A DNA stretch of 64,000 nt from Lysobacter capsici (lineage in GTDB: Bacteria; Pseudomonadota; Gammaproteobacteria; Xanthomonadales; Xanthomonadaceae): the NCBI RefSeq assembly GCF_014779555.2, contig NZ_CP094357.1:4836001-4900000 (forward strand), in the 5' to 3' direction. A program made the translations under genes and the position numbers. Under the pieces are notes generated by a model. The model was not told the origin of the DNA, did not search any database, and worked only from the letters and a program-made list of their open reading frames with translations. Of the stretch, positions 13,006-59,992 are shown in pieces (within the stretch, counting starts at the first letter, position 1; every line of letters starts with the position of its first letter).

Positions 13006-16000
13006 TCAGCCCACCCACACCCGCGCATTGCGGAACATGCGCAGCCACGGCGAGTCGCCGGCCCAGTCCTTCGGCGACCAGCTGAAATTGGCGCTGCGCA
13101 GGGTGCGTTCGGGGTGCGGCATCAGCAAGGTCGCGCGGCCGTCGCGGCTGGTCAGGCCGGCGATGCCGTCGGGCGAGCCGTTCGGGTTGAGCGGGTACTG
13201 CTCGGCCACCCGGCCTTCGCCGTCGATATAGCGCAGCGCGATGTCGGCGGCGCCGCGGTCGAGGTTGTTGGCGAAGCTGGCGCGGCCTTCGCCATGGGCG
13301 ACCGCGACCGGAATGCGCGAACCGGCCATGCCGCGCAGGAACAGCGACGGCGATTCGACCACTTCCAGCAGGCCCAGGCGCGCTTCGAACTGCTCGCTGC
13401 GATTGCGCAGGAACACCGGCCAATGCTCGGCGCCCGGCACGATCGGCTTGAGCTGGGCGAGCATCTGGCAGCCGTTGCACACGCCCAACGAGAAGCTGTC
13501 TTCGCGGGCGAAGAACGCGGCGAAGGCATCGCGCAGCGCGCTGCGCTCGAGAATGCTGGTGGCCCAGCCGCGACCGGCGCCGAGCACGTCGCCGTAGCTG
13601 AAACCGCCGCAGGCGGCGAAGCCCTTGAAGTCCTGCAGCGCGAAGCGGCCGCTGATCAGGTCGCTCATGTGCACGTCGAAGGCTTCGAAGCCGGCGCGGT
13701 CGAACGCGGCGGCCATTTCGATCTGGCCGTTGACGCCCTGCTCGCGCAGGATCGCGACCTTCGGCCGCGCGCCGGTGTTGATGAACGGCGCGGCGATGTC
13801 GTCGTTCGGGTCGAAGTTCAACTTCGGCTTCAGGCCCGGCGCGGCGAAATCGCGCGCGATCGCGCGCTCCTCGTCGGCGCAGTCGGGGTTGTCGCGCAGC
13901 TTCTGCAAGGCATGGCTGGTCGACCACCACGCGTCGAACAATTCGTCCCAGCGCCATTCCATCAGCACCTTGCCGTCGTCCTTGACCCGGATCGACGGCG
14001 CCGTGGTCGGCTTGGCGATGCGCTGCGCGCAGTCGATCAGACCATGGCGCGAAATCAGGTCGGCGAATTCGGCGCGGTCGTCGTTGTGGATCTGCACGAT
14101 CGCGCCGAGTTCTTCGTTGAACAAGGTGCGGAACGGGTCCTCGCCCCAGCCGTCGAGGCTGATGTCCAGGCCCAGGCGCGAGCAGAACGCCATTTCTGCC
14201 AGGGTCGCGAACGCGCCGCCGTCGCTGCGGTCGTGATAGGCCAGCAGCAGGCCGGCTTCGCGCGCGTCGCGGATGAGTTCGAAGAAATCGCGCAGACGCT
14301 GCGGGCTGTTGAGATCGGGCACGCCGCTTTCATGCCGCGCGCCGTCGCCGGTCTGGCCGGCGAATGCGGGCAGGCCGCTGTGCGAATGCTTCGAGACCGC
14401 CTGCGGATGCACCTGCGCCAGCACCGAACCACCCAAACGCTGCTTGCCCGCGCCCAAGCCGATCAGCCACAACTCGGTATCGCCTTCGCGCGACAACAGC
14501 GGGGTGAGTTGCTGACGCACATCGACCACCGGCGCGAACGCGCTGACGATCAGCGAAACCGGCGATACGGACTTATGCGCGACCGGCGACGATCCGCCTT
14601 CGCGATTCCCAATTCCCGATTCCCGATTCCCAGCCCACTGCGCCTGCATCGACAGCGAATCCTTGCCGACCGGGATGCTCAGTTCGAGTTCCGGGCACAG
14701 CTCCAGGCCGACCGCCTTGACCGCGTCGAACAGCAGCGCGTCTTCGCCCGGATGCGAGGCCGCCGCCATCCAGTTCGCCGACAGCTTGATCCGGTTGAGC
14801 GATTCGACCGGCGCGGCGCACAGGTTGGTGATCGCTTCGCCGACCGCCATGCGCGCGGCCGCGGCCGCGTCCAGCAGCGCCAGCGGGGTGCGTTCGCCGA
14901 CCGCCATCGCTTCGCCGACGAAGCCGTCGAAGTCGCTCAAGGTGATCGCGCAATCGGCCATCGGCAACTGCCACGGGCCGATCATCTGATCGCGCGCGAC
15001 CAGGCCGCCGACGGTGCGATCGCCGATGGTGATGAGGAAGTTCTTCGCCGCGACGGTCGGGTGCGCGAGCACGCGCAGGCCGGCTTCGCGCAGATCCAGC
15101 CCGTCCCAGTCCAGCGCCGGCCACGGCGCGGCCGCGGGATGGCGGGTGTCGCGGTGCATCTTCGGCGGTTTGCCGAACAGCACGTCCATCGGGAAATCGA
15201 TGGGCCAGTCCTGAGCTTGAGCCCCTCTCTCGCTTGCGGGAGAGGGGTTGGGGTGAGGGTTCGTCGGCGACGTCGTGCCCTCATCCGCCCTTCGGGCACC
15301 TTCTCCCGTAGGCGGGAGAAGGGAATGCTCGGAGCCGTACACGCTTTCGATCGTCGCGCCATAACCGACCACGAGGCGTTCTTCCGCCGTCGCGTAACCG
15401 ACCACCGCGAACGGGCAACGCTCGCGCTCGCAGATCGCGGCGAAATCGGCCACGCGATCGGCCGGCAAACCCAGCACGTAGCGTTCCTGCGATTCGTTGC
15501 ACCACAGCTGCATCGGCGACAAGGAGGGATCGTCGCTGGGCACTTTCGCCAGATCGATCACGCCGCCGAGGCCCGAGTCGTGCAGCAGTTCGGGAATCGC
15601 GTTGGACAGACCGCCGGCGCCGACGTCGTGGGCACTGTCGATCGGGTTGTTTTCGCCGAGCGCGACGCAGCGGTCGATCACTTCCTGGCAGCGGCGTTCC
15701 ATCTCCGGGTTGTCGCGCTGCACGCTGGCGAAATCCAGGTCCTCGGCGCTGTCGCCGGAGGCGACCGAACTGGCCGCGCCGCCGCCCAGGCCGATCAGCA
15801 TCGCCGGGCCGCCGAGCACGATCACCGCATGGCCGGGTTTCAGGCCCAGCTTGGCCACCTGCACGCGATCGATCGCGCCCAGACCGCCGGCGAGCATGAT
15901 CGGCTTGTCGTAGGCGCGGGTCAGCGTGCCGTTGGCGGTTTCGCCTTCGGACAATTCGAAGCTGCGGAAATAACCGACCAGGTTCGGCCGGCCGAATTCG

Positions 16001-17112
16001 TTGTTGAACGCGGCCGCGCCGATCGGGCCGTCGAGCATGATCTCCAGCGCCGGCGCCATGCGCGGATTGAGCGAACGTTCGCTTTCCCACGGCTGCGGCA
16101 AGGTCGGGATGCGCAGGTGCGACACGCTGAAACCGCACAGACCGGCCTTGGGCCGTCCGCCGCGGCCGGTCGCGCCTTCGTCGCGGATTTCGCCGCCGTT
16201 GCCGGTGCTGGCGCCGGGGAACGGCGCGATCGCGGTCGGGTGGTTATGGGTTTCGACCTTGATGCAGAACGCCGACGGGATCTGCGCCTCGGCGCTGTAG
16301 GCCTGGCTGCCCGGCTGCGGCCGGAACCGGCGCGCCGGATAACCCTCGACCACCGCGGCGTTGTCGCTGTACGCCGACAAGGTGTTTTCCGGGGTCTGCG
16401 CGTGGGTGTGCTTGATCATCTTGAACAGCGAGTACTGCTGTTCGCGACCGTCGAGCGTCCACGAGGCATTGAAGATCTTGTGCCGGCAATGCTCGGAATT
16501 GGCCTGCGCGAACATCATCAGTTCGACGTCGGACGGCATCCGGCCCAGCGCGGTGTAGCGTTCGCGCAGGTAGCCGATTTCGTCGTCGGCCAGGGCCAGG
16601 CCCAGGCGCGAATTGGCCGATTCCAGCTCGTCCAGGGCGATGCGTTCGAGCTCGCCGCGCGCCGGCACCGAGAACAGCGCGGCCGCGTCGTCGCTCGTGT
16701 CGAGCAGCGACTGGGTCATCGGGTCGTGCAGGACCTTGGCCAGCGCGCCCTGGGTGGCGGCATCGCTCGGCCAGCCGCTCAGGTCGTAGCGGGTGCCGCG
16801 TTCGACCCGCTTGACCGGCTGGCCGGCGCCGCGCAGCAGCTCGGTGGCCTTGCTGGCCCAGGGCGAGAGCGTGCCCAGGCGCGGGGTTACGTAACGCGAA
16901 ATGGATTCGCTTTCGCGCACCGCTTCGGTTGGCTCGGCCTGCAGGATGCGGCGCAGGGTCGCGTCGTCGGGCGAGGCGCCGGCTTCGGGTTCGACCCAGT
17001 ACACGGGCCAGGCGTCTAACAGGCGGACGCTGGAATGAAGGGCGGACAGGCGAGCTTGGAGACGCTCGCGGCGGAACGAAGACAGGGCCGAGGGGCCCTC
17101 GAGGACGATCAT
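13006..17112 (-). CDS. purL: Phosphoribosylformylglycinamidine synthase PurL (large single-chain form) with repeat-derived insertions
   Basis: Converts FGAR, glutamine and ATP to FGAM in purine synthesis. The 1368-aa product has the N-terminal PurS-like domain, two ATPase halves and the C-terminal glutaminase domain (nucleophile region [11 protein letters not shown], then HGEG and PHPERTLR). The start ATG at 17112 gives [13 protein letters not shown], matching the family. It is about 70 residues longer than the E. coli enzyme. The excess falls in three in-frame stretches that translate dispersed genomic repeats (near 15211-15345, 14577-14640 and 14325-14400). All motifs around them are intact, so the gene is very likely functional. 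Confidence 0.96.
14325..14400 (-). repeat. Diverged PAFAG-type repeat inside purL
   Basis: This stretch translates in purL as a segment containing [19 protein letters not shown], absent from the E. coli enzyme at the same point. The core resembles the dispersed repeat whose translation gives PAFAGMT, intact copies of which lie at 45434-45545. The match is partial, so this is a likely degenerate copy rather than a certain one. Confidence 0.5.
14603..14632 (-). repeat. (GGGAATC)n repeat inside purL coding sequence
   Basis: Three to four GGGAATC-type units on the minus strand are translated in purL as [13 protein letters not shown] between the conserved segments SMQAQW and [12 protein letters not shown]. 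The same repeat is intergenic elsewhere in the window. Confidence 0.85.
15221..15323. repeat. Two-hairpin dispersed repeat inside purL coding sequence
   Basis: Contains two palindromic modules: CCCCTCTC...GGAGAGGGG followed by TTGGGGTGAGGG (15222-15260), and CCCTCATCCGCCC...CCTTCTCCCG...CGGGAGAAGG (15278-15323). This is a mobile-looking repeat type familiar from Xanthomonadaceae intergenic DNA. In purL it reads as [18 protein letters not shown] and [13 protein letters not shown], about 40 residues between the VYGSE and [14 protein letters not shown] segments. Confidence 0.85.
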
Positions 17113-19222: not shown

Positions 19223-19390
19223 AGTGTGTTGACGCGGTCGCGGCTCGCGCCGCTCCTACAGGGGCTGCGGCGCTGATTCGGCCGCTCGTTACGCACTCCC
19301 TCCTCGGATCGAGTGCGGGGCGCACCTGCAAACCGCGATGAAACCCGGATCCACCCTGTAGGAGCGGCGCGAGCCGCGACCGCGACATGC
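19223..19390. repeat. REP-like inverted pair (GTAGGAGCGGCGCGAGCCGCGACC type)
   Basis: The left copy (about 19230-19264) reads GGTCGCGGCTCGCGCCGCTCCTACAGG-like sequence and the right copy (about 19354-19388) is its reverse complement. About 90 bp lie between. This is the bacterial-interspersed-mosaic arrangement of REP elements common in pseudomonads and Xanthomonadaceae. A partial third copy (CATGTCGCGGTCGCGGC) follows at 19408-19430. Confidence 0.8.
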
Positions 19391-19520
19391 GGGTTACGAC
19401 GCAACCGCCATGTCGCGGTCGCGGCTGTGCCGCTCTGAGATGGCCGCGGTTATCGGCTTTACGGGCTGTCCTGAGCGGCAGCCAGCGACATGATTTCTTC
19501 GCGGTGCTCGCGAGTCCGAT

Positions 19521-19844
19521 CCTTGCGAATCCGGCCCGGCGCAGTGCGCCGGGCGTTCAAGCAGGCACGCGGCAGTGGCGAAACTTCGTTGTAAAACCTG
19601 CGAACTGGTCCTTGCGAACCCGGCCCGGCGCAGTGCGCCGGGCGTTCAAGCAGGCACGCGGCAGTGGCGAAACTTCGTTGTAAAACCTGCGAACTGGTCC
19701 TTGCGAATCCGGCCCGGCGCAGTGCGCCGGGCGTTCAAGCAGGCACGCGGCAGTGGCGAAACTTCGTTGTAAAACCTGCGAACTGGTCCTTGCGAATCCG
19801 GCCCGGCGCAGTGCGCCGGGCGTTCAAGCAGGCACGCGGCAGTG
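19521..19844. repeat. 89-bp tandem repeat array, about 3.6 copies
   Basis: Unit starts (CTTGCGAA) fall at 19522, 19611, 19700 and 19789, giving an exact 89-bp period. The copies are nearly identical; the second differs by one base near its start (GAACC for GAATC). Each unit contains a perfect palindrome GCCCGGCGCA-G-TGCGCCGGGC with 10-bp arms. The last unit is cut short after GGCAGTG. The array ends about 18 bp before the 3' end of xerD. Confidence 0.95.
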
Positions 19845-19862
19845 CCGCGTTAGCGCCTGCTT

Positions 19863-40291: not shown

Positions 40292-40404
40292 GGGAATCGG
40301 GAATCGGGAATCGGGAATCGCTGAAAAGCGGTCTGCGCTGGTGGCCGCCAAGTTCGCGGGGAAACCGCTTTGACGACTCCCGATTCCCGACTCCCGATTC
40401 CCGA
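40292..40404. repeat. (GGGAATC)n inverted repeat pair around the mlaF start
   Basis: Four perfect GGGAATC units at 40292-40319 form a textbook quadruplex motif. The opposed units (GATTCCC, GACTCCC types) at about 40377-40404 lie inside the mlaF reading frame just after its start codon. Confidence 0.88.
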
Positions 40405-41239
40405 TGAGGGCGACGCCAACGGCGACGACCTCATCATCCGCATCCGCGGCCTGGTCAATCACTTCGGCGAGCAAGTCGTTCACGACGGACTCGACCTGGA
40501 CGTCAAGCGCGGCGAGATCATCGGCGTGGTCGGCGGCTCGGGCACCGGCAAGTCGGTGATGATGCGGTCGATCCTGGGCCTGCGTAAGCCCAACGCCGGC
40601 GAGATCGAAGTGCTCGGCATCGACGCGCGCAATCCCGATCCGCGCATGCGCCGCGAGATCGAACGCAACACCGGCGTGCTGTTCCAGGACGGCGCCTTGT
40701 TCTCGTCGCTGACCGTGGGCGAGAACGTGCAGGTGCCGCTCAAGGAGTACCACGGCGACCTGCCCGATTCGCTGCGCTACGAACTGGCGCTGCTCAAGGT
40801 CAAGCTGTCGGGCCTGCCGGCCGATGCGATCAACAAGCTGCCTTCGCAGTTGTCCGGCGGCATGCGCAAGCGCGCCGGCCTGGCGCGCGCGCTGGCGCTG
40901 GACCCGCCGCTGCTGTTTCTCGACGAACCCACCGCCGGCCTGGATCCGATCGGCGCGGCCGCGTTCGACCGCTTGATCCGCACCCTGCAACAGGCGCTGG
41001 GCCTGACCGTGTTCCTGATCACCCACGACCTGGACACGCTGTATGCGATCTGCGATCGCATCGCGGTGCTCGCCGACAAGAAGGTGATCGCCTGCGCGCC
41101 GATCGAGGAGGTCGAGAAAATCGATCATCCGTGGGTGCAGGAATACTTCCACGGCCCGCGCGCGCGCGCCGCGCAGGTCGCGCGCGACAAGAACGTGGCG
41201 GGCCACGCGGCCGCACCGCCCGATGCGCAGGCGCGATGA
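40370..41239 (+). CDS. MlaF-type ABC ATPase
   Basis: ATP-binding subunit of the MCE lipid transporter. The 289-aa product has Walker A GGSGTGKSVMM, Q-loop (VLFQDGALFSSLTV), signature LSGGMRKRAGLARALAL and Walker B LLFLDEPTAGLDP. The only plausible start in frame is TTG 40370, so the first 12 residues (MTTPDSRLPIPD) are translated from the GGGAATC-type repeat. No better ATG occurs before Walker A. The 3' end overlaps the CPBP gene by 4 nt. Confidence 0.9.
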   Translation: MTTPDSRLPIPDEGDANGDDLIIRIRGLVNHFGEQVVHDGLDLDVKRGEIIGVVGGSGTGKSVMMRSILGLRKPNAGEIEVLGIDARNPDPRMRREIERNTGVLFQDGALFSSLTVGENVQVPLKEYHGDLPDSLRYELALLKVKLSGLPADAINKLPSQLSGGMRKRAGLARALALDPPLLFLDEPTAGLDPIGAAAFDRLIRTLQQALGLTVFLITHDLDTLYAICDRIAVLADKKVIACAPIEEVEKIDHPWVQEYFHGPRARAAQVARDKNVAGHAAAPPDAQAR

Positions 41240-45433: not shown

Positions 45434-45545
45434 CGTCATTCCCGCGAAGGCGGGCTCTGCCTTACTTCGGCGGAGCCGAACATCCACAGACTTCAGAGTC
45501 ATGACGCGGTGAAGCCCTGGATTCCCGCCTTCGCGGAAATGACGG
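45434..45545. repeat. Inverted PAFAG-type repeat (GTCATTCCCGCGAAGGCGGG)
   Basis: Arm 45434-45454 reads CGTCATTCCCGCGAAGGCGGG and arm 45521-45545 is its reverse complement with small changes. About 65 bp separate them. The translated core WIPAFAEMTD resembles the segment inserted in purL. Confidence 0.8.
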
Positions 45546-56458: not shown

Positions 56459-56802
56459 GAGCGCAGCCTCTTCATTAGCTTGCTTGGCCTGAATCGGTTG
56501 AAGAACCCTACGTCCGCCTCGGCTCGGCGCGGCACCCAGACTCCACGCCGGCGCCACCATACCGCGCCCGCGACGCGGACGGCCGCGCCCAGACTGAAGA
56601 CGCCGGCGCAGCCGTGAACGCGGTCGCGGTTTGCGGCCACCTCGCACGATCCGCGCGGCCCGGGACGGCCGACCTATCACCCCATCCACGCCCCTCCCGC
56701 CCACAACACGCGCTGAGCGGGCCATTGCGGCCAACCCTCGCCGGACGCGGCGAGGTATCCCGCGCCCTGCCCAACCCGCCGACCCGGCAACCTGCGCCCG
56801 CC
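56459..56802. other. Intergenic region left of the etfB fragment
   Basis: 344 bp very rich in GC. No gene or clear signal. It would hold the start region of the 198-aa membrane protein gene on the minus strand and the left boundary of the duplicated etfB leader on the plus strand. Confidence 0.5.
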
Positions 56803-57276
56803 GGCCGTCTCCGTTAGAATTGGCGGCTCTTGGCCGCTCCCGGCCGGACACCGCCCGCAAGAAATCCCCCGCACGATGAAGATCTTCGTCGGTTGCAAGC
56901 GCGTGGTGGACTACAACGTCCGCATTCAGGTCAAGCCGGATGGCTCCGGCCTGGTCACCGACGGCGTCAAGCTGTCGGCCAATCCGTTCGACGAAATCGC
57001 CCTGGAAGAGGCCCTCGCCTGCGCGACAAGGGCATCGCCACCGAGGTCGTGGTCGCCACGATCGCCCCCGCCGACGCCCAGCCGCACCTGCGCAACGGTC
57101 TGGCCCTGGGCGCCAACCGCGCCGTGCATATCGTCTGCGACCAGCCGATCCAGTCGCTGACCGCCGCGCTGCTCAAGCTGATCAAAAAGGAACGGCCCGA
57201 CCTCGTGATCCTGGGCAAGCAGGCGATCGACGACGACGCCAGCCAGACCGGCCAGATGCTGGCGACGCTATGGAAT
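56803..57276 (+). repeat. Direct repeat, left copy: etfB leader plus first ~400 bp of etfB
   Basis: Matches 59510-59992 from GGCCGTCTCCGTTAGAATTGG through the coding start to the codons for MLATLW. By eye there are about a dozen substitutions over the coding part, one 1-nt deletion and one 6-nt deletion. The Shine-Dalgarno AAGGAA of the intact copy is AAGAAA here. Homology ends at the junction with mutarotase-like sequence. Confidence 0.92.
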
Positions 57277-59046: not shown

Positions 59047-59509
59047 GCGTTTGCTCCAGCTTTTGAGTTACGACGAAGGCGTTCCCGCAAAGCTAAGGCA
59101 CGGCAAACGCACAGGCTGCGACGTGGCAAGGCGCTTGACGGGGCGGCGCCGACACGGCGATACCCGCCGCCCGAGCTGACCGCAAGAAAGTTGCCGATCG
59201 CCTGAGCCAGTTCACGCCCATCACGGCCCGGACCGACAACGACCGGAGGCCGCTACATCTCACTCCCGGCCAGGCGGCAACGTTCCAAGCCTGCAACGCC
59301 GCTGCCCCGATAGGCGCGCCGGGCCGAAGTCCCGATGCTGATTCGCCGCAGGGCGACTTCAGCGCAACGCGCGCGCGCGGCCCTAACCCGCGTCTCCCCT
59401 CGCTCCGACGCGGAGGTGCACGCCTCCACGAGCCCCCCCCCACCTCGCCACGCAAGCCCGGCGTTTAAAACGCCCGGGCGGCCAAAACCGCCCCACGCTG
59501 CCCCCGCCC
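59047..59509. other. 463-bp region between the tailspike-like gene and etfB
   Basis: No gene supported. The part next to 59047 would hold the tailspike gene's start signals (minus strand); GTTTAAAACG at about 59462-59471 is the only AT-rich spot. The right end grades into the etfB leader copy. Confidence 0.5.
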
Positions 59510-59992
59510 GGCCGTCTCCGTTAGAATTGGCGGCTCTTGGCCGCTCCCGGCCGGACACCCCCACAAGGAATCCCCGCACGATGAAGATCCTCGTCGGCTA
59601 CAAGCGCGTGGTGGACTACAACGTCCGCATTCAGGTCAAGCCGGATGGCTCCGGCGTGGTCACCGACGGCGTCAAGCTGTCGGCCAATCCGTTCGACGAA
59701 ATCGCCCTGGAAGAGGCCCTGCGCCTGCGCGACAAGGGCATCGCCACCGAGGTCGTGGTCGCCACGATCGCCCCCGCCGACGCCCAGCCGCACCTGCGCA
59801 ACGGCCTGGCCATGGGCGCCAACCGCGCCGTGCATATCGTCTGCGACCAGCCGATCCAGTCGCTGACCGCCGCGCGCGCGCTGCTCAAGCTGATCGAAAA
59901 GGAACAGCCCGACCTGGTGATCCTGGGCAAGCAGGCGATCGACGACGACGCCAGCCAGACCGGCCAGATGCTCGCCACCCTGTGGGGCCGCC
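59510..59992 (+). repeat. Direct repeat, right copy: etfB leader and 5' part of intact etfB
   Basis: Partner of 56803-57276. Includes a TAGAAT box at 59522-59527 and a GC-rich dyad (GGCCGCTCCCGGCC) before the Shine-Dalgarno AAGGAA and the ATG at 59581. Confidence 0.92.

Follow-up and report, generated by a model that had tools for sequence, protein, structure and literature searches.

Two loops of PurL are likely recurrent landing sites for dispersed palindromic repeats in Lysobacteraceae

The window (the whole 64-kb stretch of DNA analysed here) carries a purL gene whose product, at 1368 amino acids (aa), is longer than the annotated PurL of Klebsiella (1295 aa). Curated NCBIfam equivalog models match the protein over its whole length (TIGR01735, 1878 bits against a cut-off of 1123; NF003672, 1900 bits against a cut-off of 783), placing it among the large FGAM synthases. 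Relative to the commonest lengths outside the family, the extra residues fall in exactly three stretches, as the first-pass annotation of this DNA had described: S1 (69 versus 23 aa), S2 (38 versus 25 aa) and S3 (48 versus 26 aa). One full-length PurL copy was found in the genome, a 6.24-Mb single contig of which the window spans 4,836,001-4,900,000, and the second PurL match in that genome is a 37-residue stretch within the S1 insert. The features of the locus are as follows:

13006..17112, minus strand: purL, phosphoribosylformylglycinamidine synthase, 1368 aa (TIGR01735 and NF003672)
15211..15339, minus strand: site S1, residues ~592-634, an in-frame insertion into the linker that joins the Pfam domains AIRS_C (residues 425-583) and PurM_N-like (residues 690-861)
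15278..15323, minus strand: first arm of a two-hairpin repeat, hairpin CTTCTCCCGC..GGGAGAAG plus GGTGCCCGAAGGGCGGATGAGGG, read as 15 residues
15222..15259, minus strand: second arm of the two-hairpin repeat (CCCTCACCCCAACCCCTCTCCCGC...), read as 13 residues
14575..14634, minus strand: site S2, residues ~827-846, an in-frame insertion within one loop of the PurM_N-like domain
14604..14631, minus strand: four GGGAATC-type heptads, a single arm read as 11 residues, assigned to the heptad class of PMC4692102
14320..14412, minus strand: site S3 ('PAFAG' loop), judged by alignment and mismatch counts to be a loop of the family

PurL proteins were aligned from 82 family genomes (20 from the genus and 62 others) and Klebsiella, and 80 named loci were added later. 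The PurL search covered 149 genomes, 4 of which gave no match, and a subset of the matched genomes was used; the 62 family genomes outside the genus form a non-random set of 27 best unbroken matches and 35 hand-picked, mostly broken matches. Some rows are partial (G003 from residue 351, ten genus rows from residues 90-100 and G083 from residue 26), and all of them cover the three sites. In the G003 gene (L063), the part before residue 351 lies out of the open frame and its DNA is ~94% identical to that of the window; this N-terminal frame change is either a real break or a sequencing error.

Across 81 family rows, the three sites are the most length-variable in PurL, with standard deviations of 18.8 for S1, 11.5 for S2 and 7.5 for S3; the next most variable segment, another part of the S2 region, reaches 2.4. 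Among 59 PurL proteins from outside the family, S1 measures 23 aa in 53 (maximum 38), S2 measures 25 aa in 48 (range 21-30) and S3 measures 26 aa in 57. These 59 proteins contained no heptads at S1 or S2 and no hairpin motif at S1. The first-pass annotation had named, as the finding that would count against insertion, the same extra loops free of repeat-like DNA in distant gamma-proteobacteria; for S1 and S2 the comparison gave no such result. Repeats account for much of the difference in S1 and S2 length among Xanthomonas and Lysobacter relatives.

At S1, the translated two-hairpin repeat proposed from the sequence is borne out by copies elsewhere in the genome. The arm motifs were derived from this S1 and match it with zero mismatches by construction, so the evidence lies in copies outside purL. 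Across the 1.664 Mb sampled, and with purL excluded, exact copies number 16 for the 23-base arm motif, which also has 3 near copies and no reversed match, and 16 for the 22-base second-arm motif, for which the reversed control gave 0 exact matches and 17 at two mismatches. A looser form of the B2 pattern gave high reversed counts (10 and 12), so our counts use B1 and the hairpin; the zero-mismatch control was clean. As RNA, the S1 region (15204-15339) folds far better than shuffled sequences (z = -4.73). An AlphaFold2 model of PurL of moderate quality (mean pLDDT 67.6, with other low stretches besides S1 and S2), taken here as supporting evidence for tolerant loops, leaves S1 mostly without predicted structure, at pLDDT 35-54, and places the S2 loop between two predicted strands, at pLDDT about 50-60.

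The reading of the second stretch as a translated (GGGAATC)n repeat also holds. Outside the three sites, heptad periodicity is close to absent from purL (1 of 289,542 windows in 83 sequences); across the genome the heptad triple gives 737 overlapping matches and its reversed pattern 0. The copy at S2 is one heptad arm rather than a palindrome, contains four G-tracts and folds poorly as RNA (z = +0.82). Reading six pure heptad units in their reading frames gave 0 stops in 36 readings; a heptad tract therefore cannot itself end a frame, and only its length must fit. S1 and S2 contain repeat DNA in frame within an open purL.

Both sites could in principle be low-complexity loops that evolve fast and look like repeats through their composition or through local slippage, a reading that draws on the loop character of all three variable sites and on the variation of S3 without a repeat. 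We regard it as extremely unlikely, given the exact 23- and 22-base matches to dispersed copies outside purL, the rarity of the heptad period in the rest of the gene and the match between inverted arms. For S1 and S2 of the window, the dispersed exact copies and the heptad-period count contradict it.

The heptads themselves have been described before. Rehm et al. 2015 reported GGGAATC/GGGNATC heptads of Xanthomonas that form quadruplexes and are mostly intergenic, with 7-11% of heptad repeats overlapping open reading frames at least partly (PMC4692102). The heptads in the present genome share with them the unit, the preference for four units, the frequent arrangement as convergent inverted pairs and the mostly intergenic location (PMC4692102). 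That class is defined by at least two tandem GGGANTN units including GGGAATC, and S2 has four; the class is also dispersed and intergenic with convergent pairs, and here 98 of 107 arms are intergenic, with 31 convergent pairs in 1.264 Mb. On sequence and distribution, the heptad parts of purL belong to the described Xanthomonas class. They differ from the heptads of that account in occupying the same two positions of a single enzyme in more than one genus, and in sharing these sites with unrelated repeats. The terms 'purL', 'in-frame' and 'amino acid' are absent from the main text of PMC4692102, whose supplementary repeat lists may hold purL.

The third stretch is a different matter. It had been read as a likely PAFAG-type repeat, and we compared it with an 18-base core that we take to represent the PAFAG repeat. 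The best match within S3 has 5 of 18 mismatches, as does the best match in the remainder of the gene; over 83 sequences the mismatches range from 4 to 9 in S3 and from 4 to 7 in the rest of purL. The same core recurs elsewhere, with 76 matches in the 1.664-Mb sample, all intergenic and 0 in genes (reversed control, 1 in 1.264 Mb), and two copies in the window at 45439-45539. As the S3 DNA matches no better than other purL DNA, the proposed third insertion looks like a chance resemblance, and we reject it. The PAF motif is carried by 72 of 82 family PurLs and by 0 of 59 non-family PurLs, and within the family it comes without repeat-like DNA. A very old, decayed PAFAG insertion would account for the protein-level resemblance (GLPAFAG) and for the confinement of the motif to family PurLs; with the S3 DNA no closer to the core than elsewhere in the gene and 0 interior PAFAG repeats in 1.66 Mb, we consider such an origin very unlikely.

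We next asked how S1 and S2 are occupied in other species, classifying S1 types by hand and scoring S1 as empty at 38 aa or less. Of the 82 family genomes, 36 have an occupied S1 (12 with the hairpin type, 12 with heptads, 6 and 1 with two further types, and 5 unassigned) and 46 an empty one; S1 is composite in G027 and G071. S2 carries heptads in 18 of the 82 PurLs and lacks them in 64, and the units differ by lineage (GGGAATC, GGGACTC, GGGATTC, GGGGACC, GTGATTC and GGGAACC). One of the further S1 types recurs clearly, at 12 other places with E <=0.002 in G004 and at one with 2e-8 in G027. The type beginning GPAQRAGRSDD... recurs at E <0.01 in 3 of its 6 carrier genomes (G038, G157 and G078); its weaker matches in two genomes that lack the insert carry little weight. 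Taken together, S1 and S2 contain heptads and the two-hairpin repeat, and probably two further kinds of dispersed repeat. Different repeat families and different heptad units occupy the same PurL sites in different species.

Close relatives illustrate this turnover. S2 heptads occur within the genus in three separate clades with differing units; they are common to G000 and G003, and the sister species G010 lacks exactly 21 nt, or three heptads. The S1 insert is of the hairpin type in G000 and G010 and of the heptad type in G003, and identity between G000 and G010 is 84.6% at S1 compared with 95.5% over the whole gene. The distribution across these three species and the genus indicates that both insertions of the window arose within the genus and that the one at S2 predates the split of the three species. 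Among named relatives, Pseudoxanthomonas sp. 3HH-4 and a Xanthomonas MAG have S2 inserts and Chiayiivirga flava and Luteimonas sp. RC10 have S1 inserts; the heptad inserts among them use other units. The earlier claim of independent in-frame repeat insertions in permissive loops agrees with these data for S1 and S2, which are still changing between close species.

On a PurL tree of 87 rows with S1, S2 and S3 removed, the fewest changes required are 20 for S1 type, 14 for S1 occupied or empty and 9 for S2 heptads. The tree was built by a quick method, with 20 of 84 inner branches open and long outgroup branches; the change counts rest on this single gene, take in losses, the 'unassigned' state and possible recombination, and score G010, which has an S2 remnant, as empty. 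Short-tract recombination would inflate counts from such a tree, and recombination in a housekeeping gene is plausible. A smaller number of insertions, in which a handful of insert-bearing purL alleles spread between species by homologous recombination and then decayed, nevertheless seems unlikely to us: heptad units at the same site differ between clades, S1 repeat families differ among G000, G010 and G003, and the G000-G010 identity at S1 falls well below that of the whole gene.

To place purL among other genes, we surveyed 1.664 Mb of the genome (26.7%, window included) with 1279 called genes, using our own codon-usage score trained on this genome as the gene caller; the same caller was applied to G081. 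Of 107 heptad arms, 98 are intergenic, 5 lie at a gene edge, 3 lie near gene ends and 1 is interior, in purL. The two-hairpin repeat is intergenic in 62 of 63 cases and motif B1 in 19 of 20, the single interior copy being in purL both times. The window was sampled because of purL; the other 1.6 Mb form an independent test and contain 0 interior heptad, hairpin, B1 or PAFAG copies. Scanning for period 7 independently of any pattern revealed one more interior run, in L248, whose sequence is not that of a GGGANTC repeat. In a 0.4-Mb sample from another genus, with 263 called genes and one stretch placed on purL, all 4 of the 4 interior heptad arms lie in purL; hairpin and PAFAG matches there are few and intergenic. 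Among the sampled genes, then, heptad and hairpin repeats are almost barred from genes, with purL the exception.

This exclusivity applies to heptads, hairpin/B1 and PAFAG. The pattern for a third S1 repeat type, D, is uninformative: its only matches in 1.264 Mb were in the interiors of two other genes, against 6 in the reversed control. Repeats of the GTAGGAGC type were dropped as a comparison for interior copies, as reversed matches outnumbered real ones (236 versus 198), leaving their 15 interior matches uninformative. Heptad arms also lie 30 codons or less from a gene end in three gene calls, at window 40370-41239, L244 13444-14742 and L303 3005-4918; the repeats may add a few residues to these protein ends, with starts taken from our own calls.

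The first-pass annotation had described the repeats as intergenic elsewhere in the window or the family. This is correct for heptads and the PAFAG core and, in the sampled part of the genome, for the hairpin repeat; within the 64-kb window the two-hairpin repeat has no other, intergenic copy. The same annotation took the purL inserts as a sign that the elements spread actively in general. The survey shows the reverse, a near-confinement to intergenic DNA in the samples of both genera, and we reject a general spread of these repeats through genes.

The layout of the heptads allows a rough expectation. In 1.264 Mb they form 31 convergent pairs and 28 single arms; 11 of the 31 paired elements have lengths that are multiples of three, and translation in six frames leaves 107 of 186 readings open. 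Random landing with purging of frame breaks only would lead to roughly twenty interior paired copies, and 0 were observed. It follows that the repeats avoid genes when they land or that most inserts are removed by selection, with two sites in purL exempt. Permissiveness alone leaves the absence of such inserts from other sampled genes unexplained.

This near-exclusive occurrence in samples of two genera raises the prospect that the inserts are selected, with a hairpin or G-rich tract in purL mRNA or DNA slowing interdomain translation or tuning expression, so that lineages re-acquire one. The position of S1 at a domain boundary, its strong RNA fold and the continued matching of insert arms to each other are compatible with such a role, which we nonetheless find quite improbable: S1 is empty in 46 of 82 family PurLs and S2 heptads are absent from 64 of 82, the S2 heptads here fold poorly as RNA, S1 is occupied by unrelated repeat types, and matching arms also follow from arrival as units. 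A PurL acting as a near-exclusive hotspot, in which lineages are driven to acquire interchangeable hairpin or G-rich repeats that serve purL expression or folding, is correspondingly doubtful. We favour the reading that short dispersed palindromic repeats, normally found between genes, have landed again and again at two tolerant PurL loops in Lysobacteraceae (Xanthomonadaceae), and we consider it likely; the tolerance of S1 and S2 for their inserts is something we infer.

The inserts seem to come from the repeat stock of each genome. Of 11 heptad-rich genomes, 6 have heptad inserts in PurL, as does 1 of 27 heptad-poor ones (Fisher p 0.001, with rows that are not independent), where the cut of 20 for heptad-rich is our own choice and the 38 genomes are those of 60 scored for abundance in which PurL was also examined. 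The underlying heptad protein search served for abundance only, as it cannot rank coding insertions in GC-rich genomes. A simple dose effect is hard to square with the 5 of 11 heptad-rich genomes without PurL heptads, and the heptad-rich genus members G001, G002 and G014 have neither an S1 nor an S2 insert; the heptad count of 4 for G006 comes from a pattern that omits its GGGATTC unit. Arms pair better within an insert than across inserts (17.4 versus 16.1 of 21; 28 inserts; 0 of 2000 permutations, with related rows pooled), which fits both the arrival of whole elements and the correction of one arm by the other.

These observations are compatible with a model in which copies of a genome's own repeats would enter purL by hairpin- or template-switch-prone copying, or through a transposase acting in trans. 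Copies landing elsewhere in proteins or out of frame would be purged, and an in-frame copy at the S1 interdomain linker or the S2 loop would be nearly neutral and could persist, steps of three heptads (21 nt) preserving the frame. A persisting insert might then change length, decay or give way to another repeat. None of the heptad, hairpin and PAFAG repeats lies in the flanks, each of about 1.5 kb, of the three Y1 transposases found in the genome, and with 0 of 3 loci so flanked we rejected a Y1 transposase as the obvious mobilizer.

Short palindromic repeats are usually termed extragenic, and the best-known protein-coding cases, in Rickettsia, are scattered over many genes. REP/BIME elements with their RAYT transposases are likewise short dispersed palindromes and mostly intergenic. 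This genome resembles that system in having GTAGGAGC-type repeats beside one of its three Y1 transposases, and differs from it in that heptad and hairpin repeats accompany none of the three. Rickettsia palindromic elements (Ogata et al. 2000, 2002) are, as reviewed in PMC10969869, short palindromes fused in frame inside metabolic genes. The purL inserts work in the same manner, with a palindromic repeat in frame inside a conserved enzyme, as both the reading frame and the fold of S1 indicate. The Rickettsia elements described there occur in many unrelated genes, whereas here one gene in the samples receives several repeat families at two sites, purL being the sole interior case among 1279 and 263 genes (the latter for heptads). 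Intragenic ERIC and other MITEs similarly fuse a small element in frame with a host reading frame (PMC10969869); the ERIC and MITE passages of that article describe no pair of loops used repeatedly by several repeat families. A target-site duplication is a mark of MITE insertion; the insert junctions in purL, inspected by eye, are too diverged for one to be read.

The titles and abstract openings of the mostly open-access literature searched contained no account of repeat inserts in purL. An essential-pathway enzyme that repeatedly receives at least three, and probably four, repeat families at two loops constitutes a natural experiment. It offers numerous insertions whose source is known, all in a protein that has solved homologues, and can show both how intergenic DNA becomes protein and how the repeats move.

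Several further repeat arrangements were observed. Another family genome has GGGAATC-type tandem tracts of >600 bases each at G034:C1:326874-327543 and G034:C8:89494-90272. Within the window, an intergenic, inverted pair of GTAGGAGC-type REP-like hairpins lies at 19230-19387, with 34-nt arms that are 97% complementary and 90 nt apart, and near this REP pair a tandem 89-bp direct repeat spans 19520-19847, its copies 99% alike. Two copies of ~0.5 kb at 56801-57273 and 59508-59985 lie ~2.7 kb apart and are 90-99% alike by segment.
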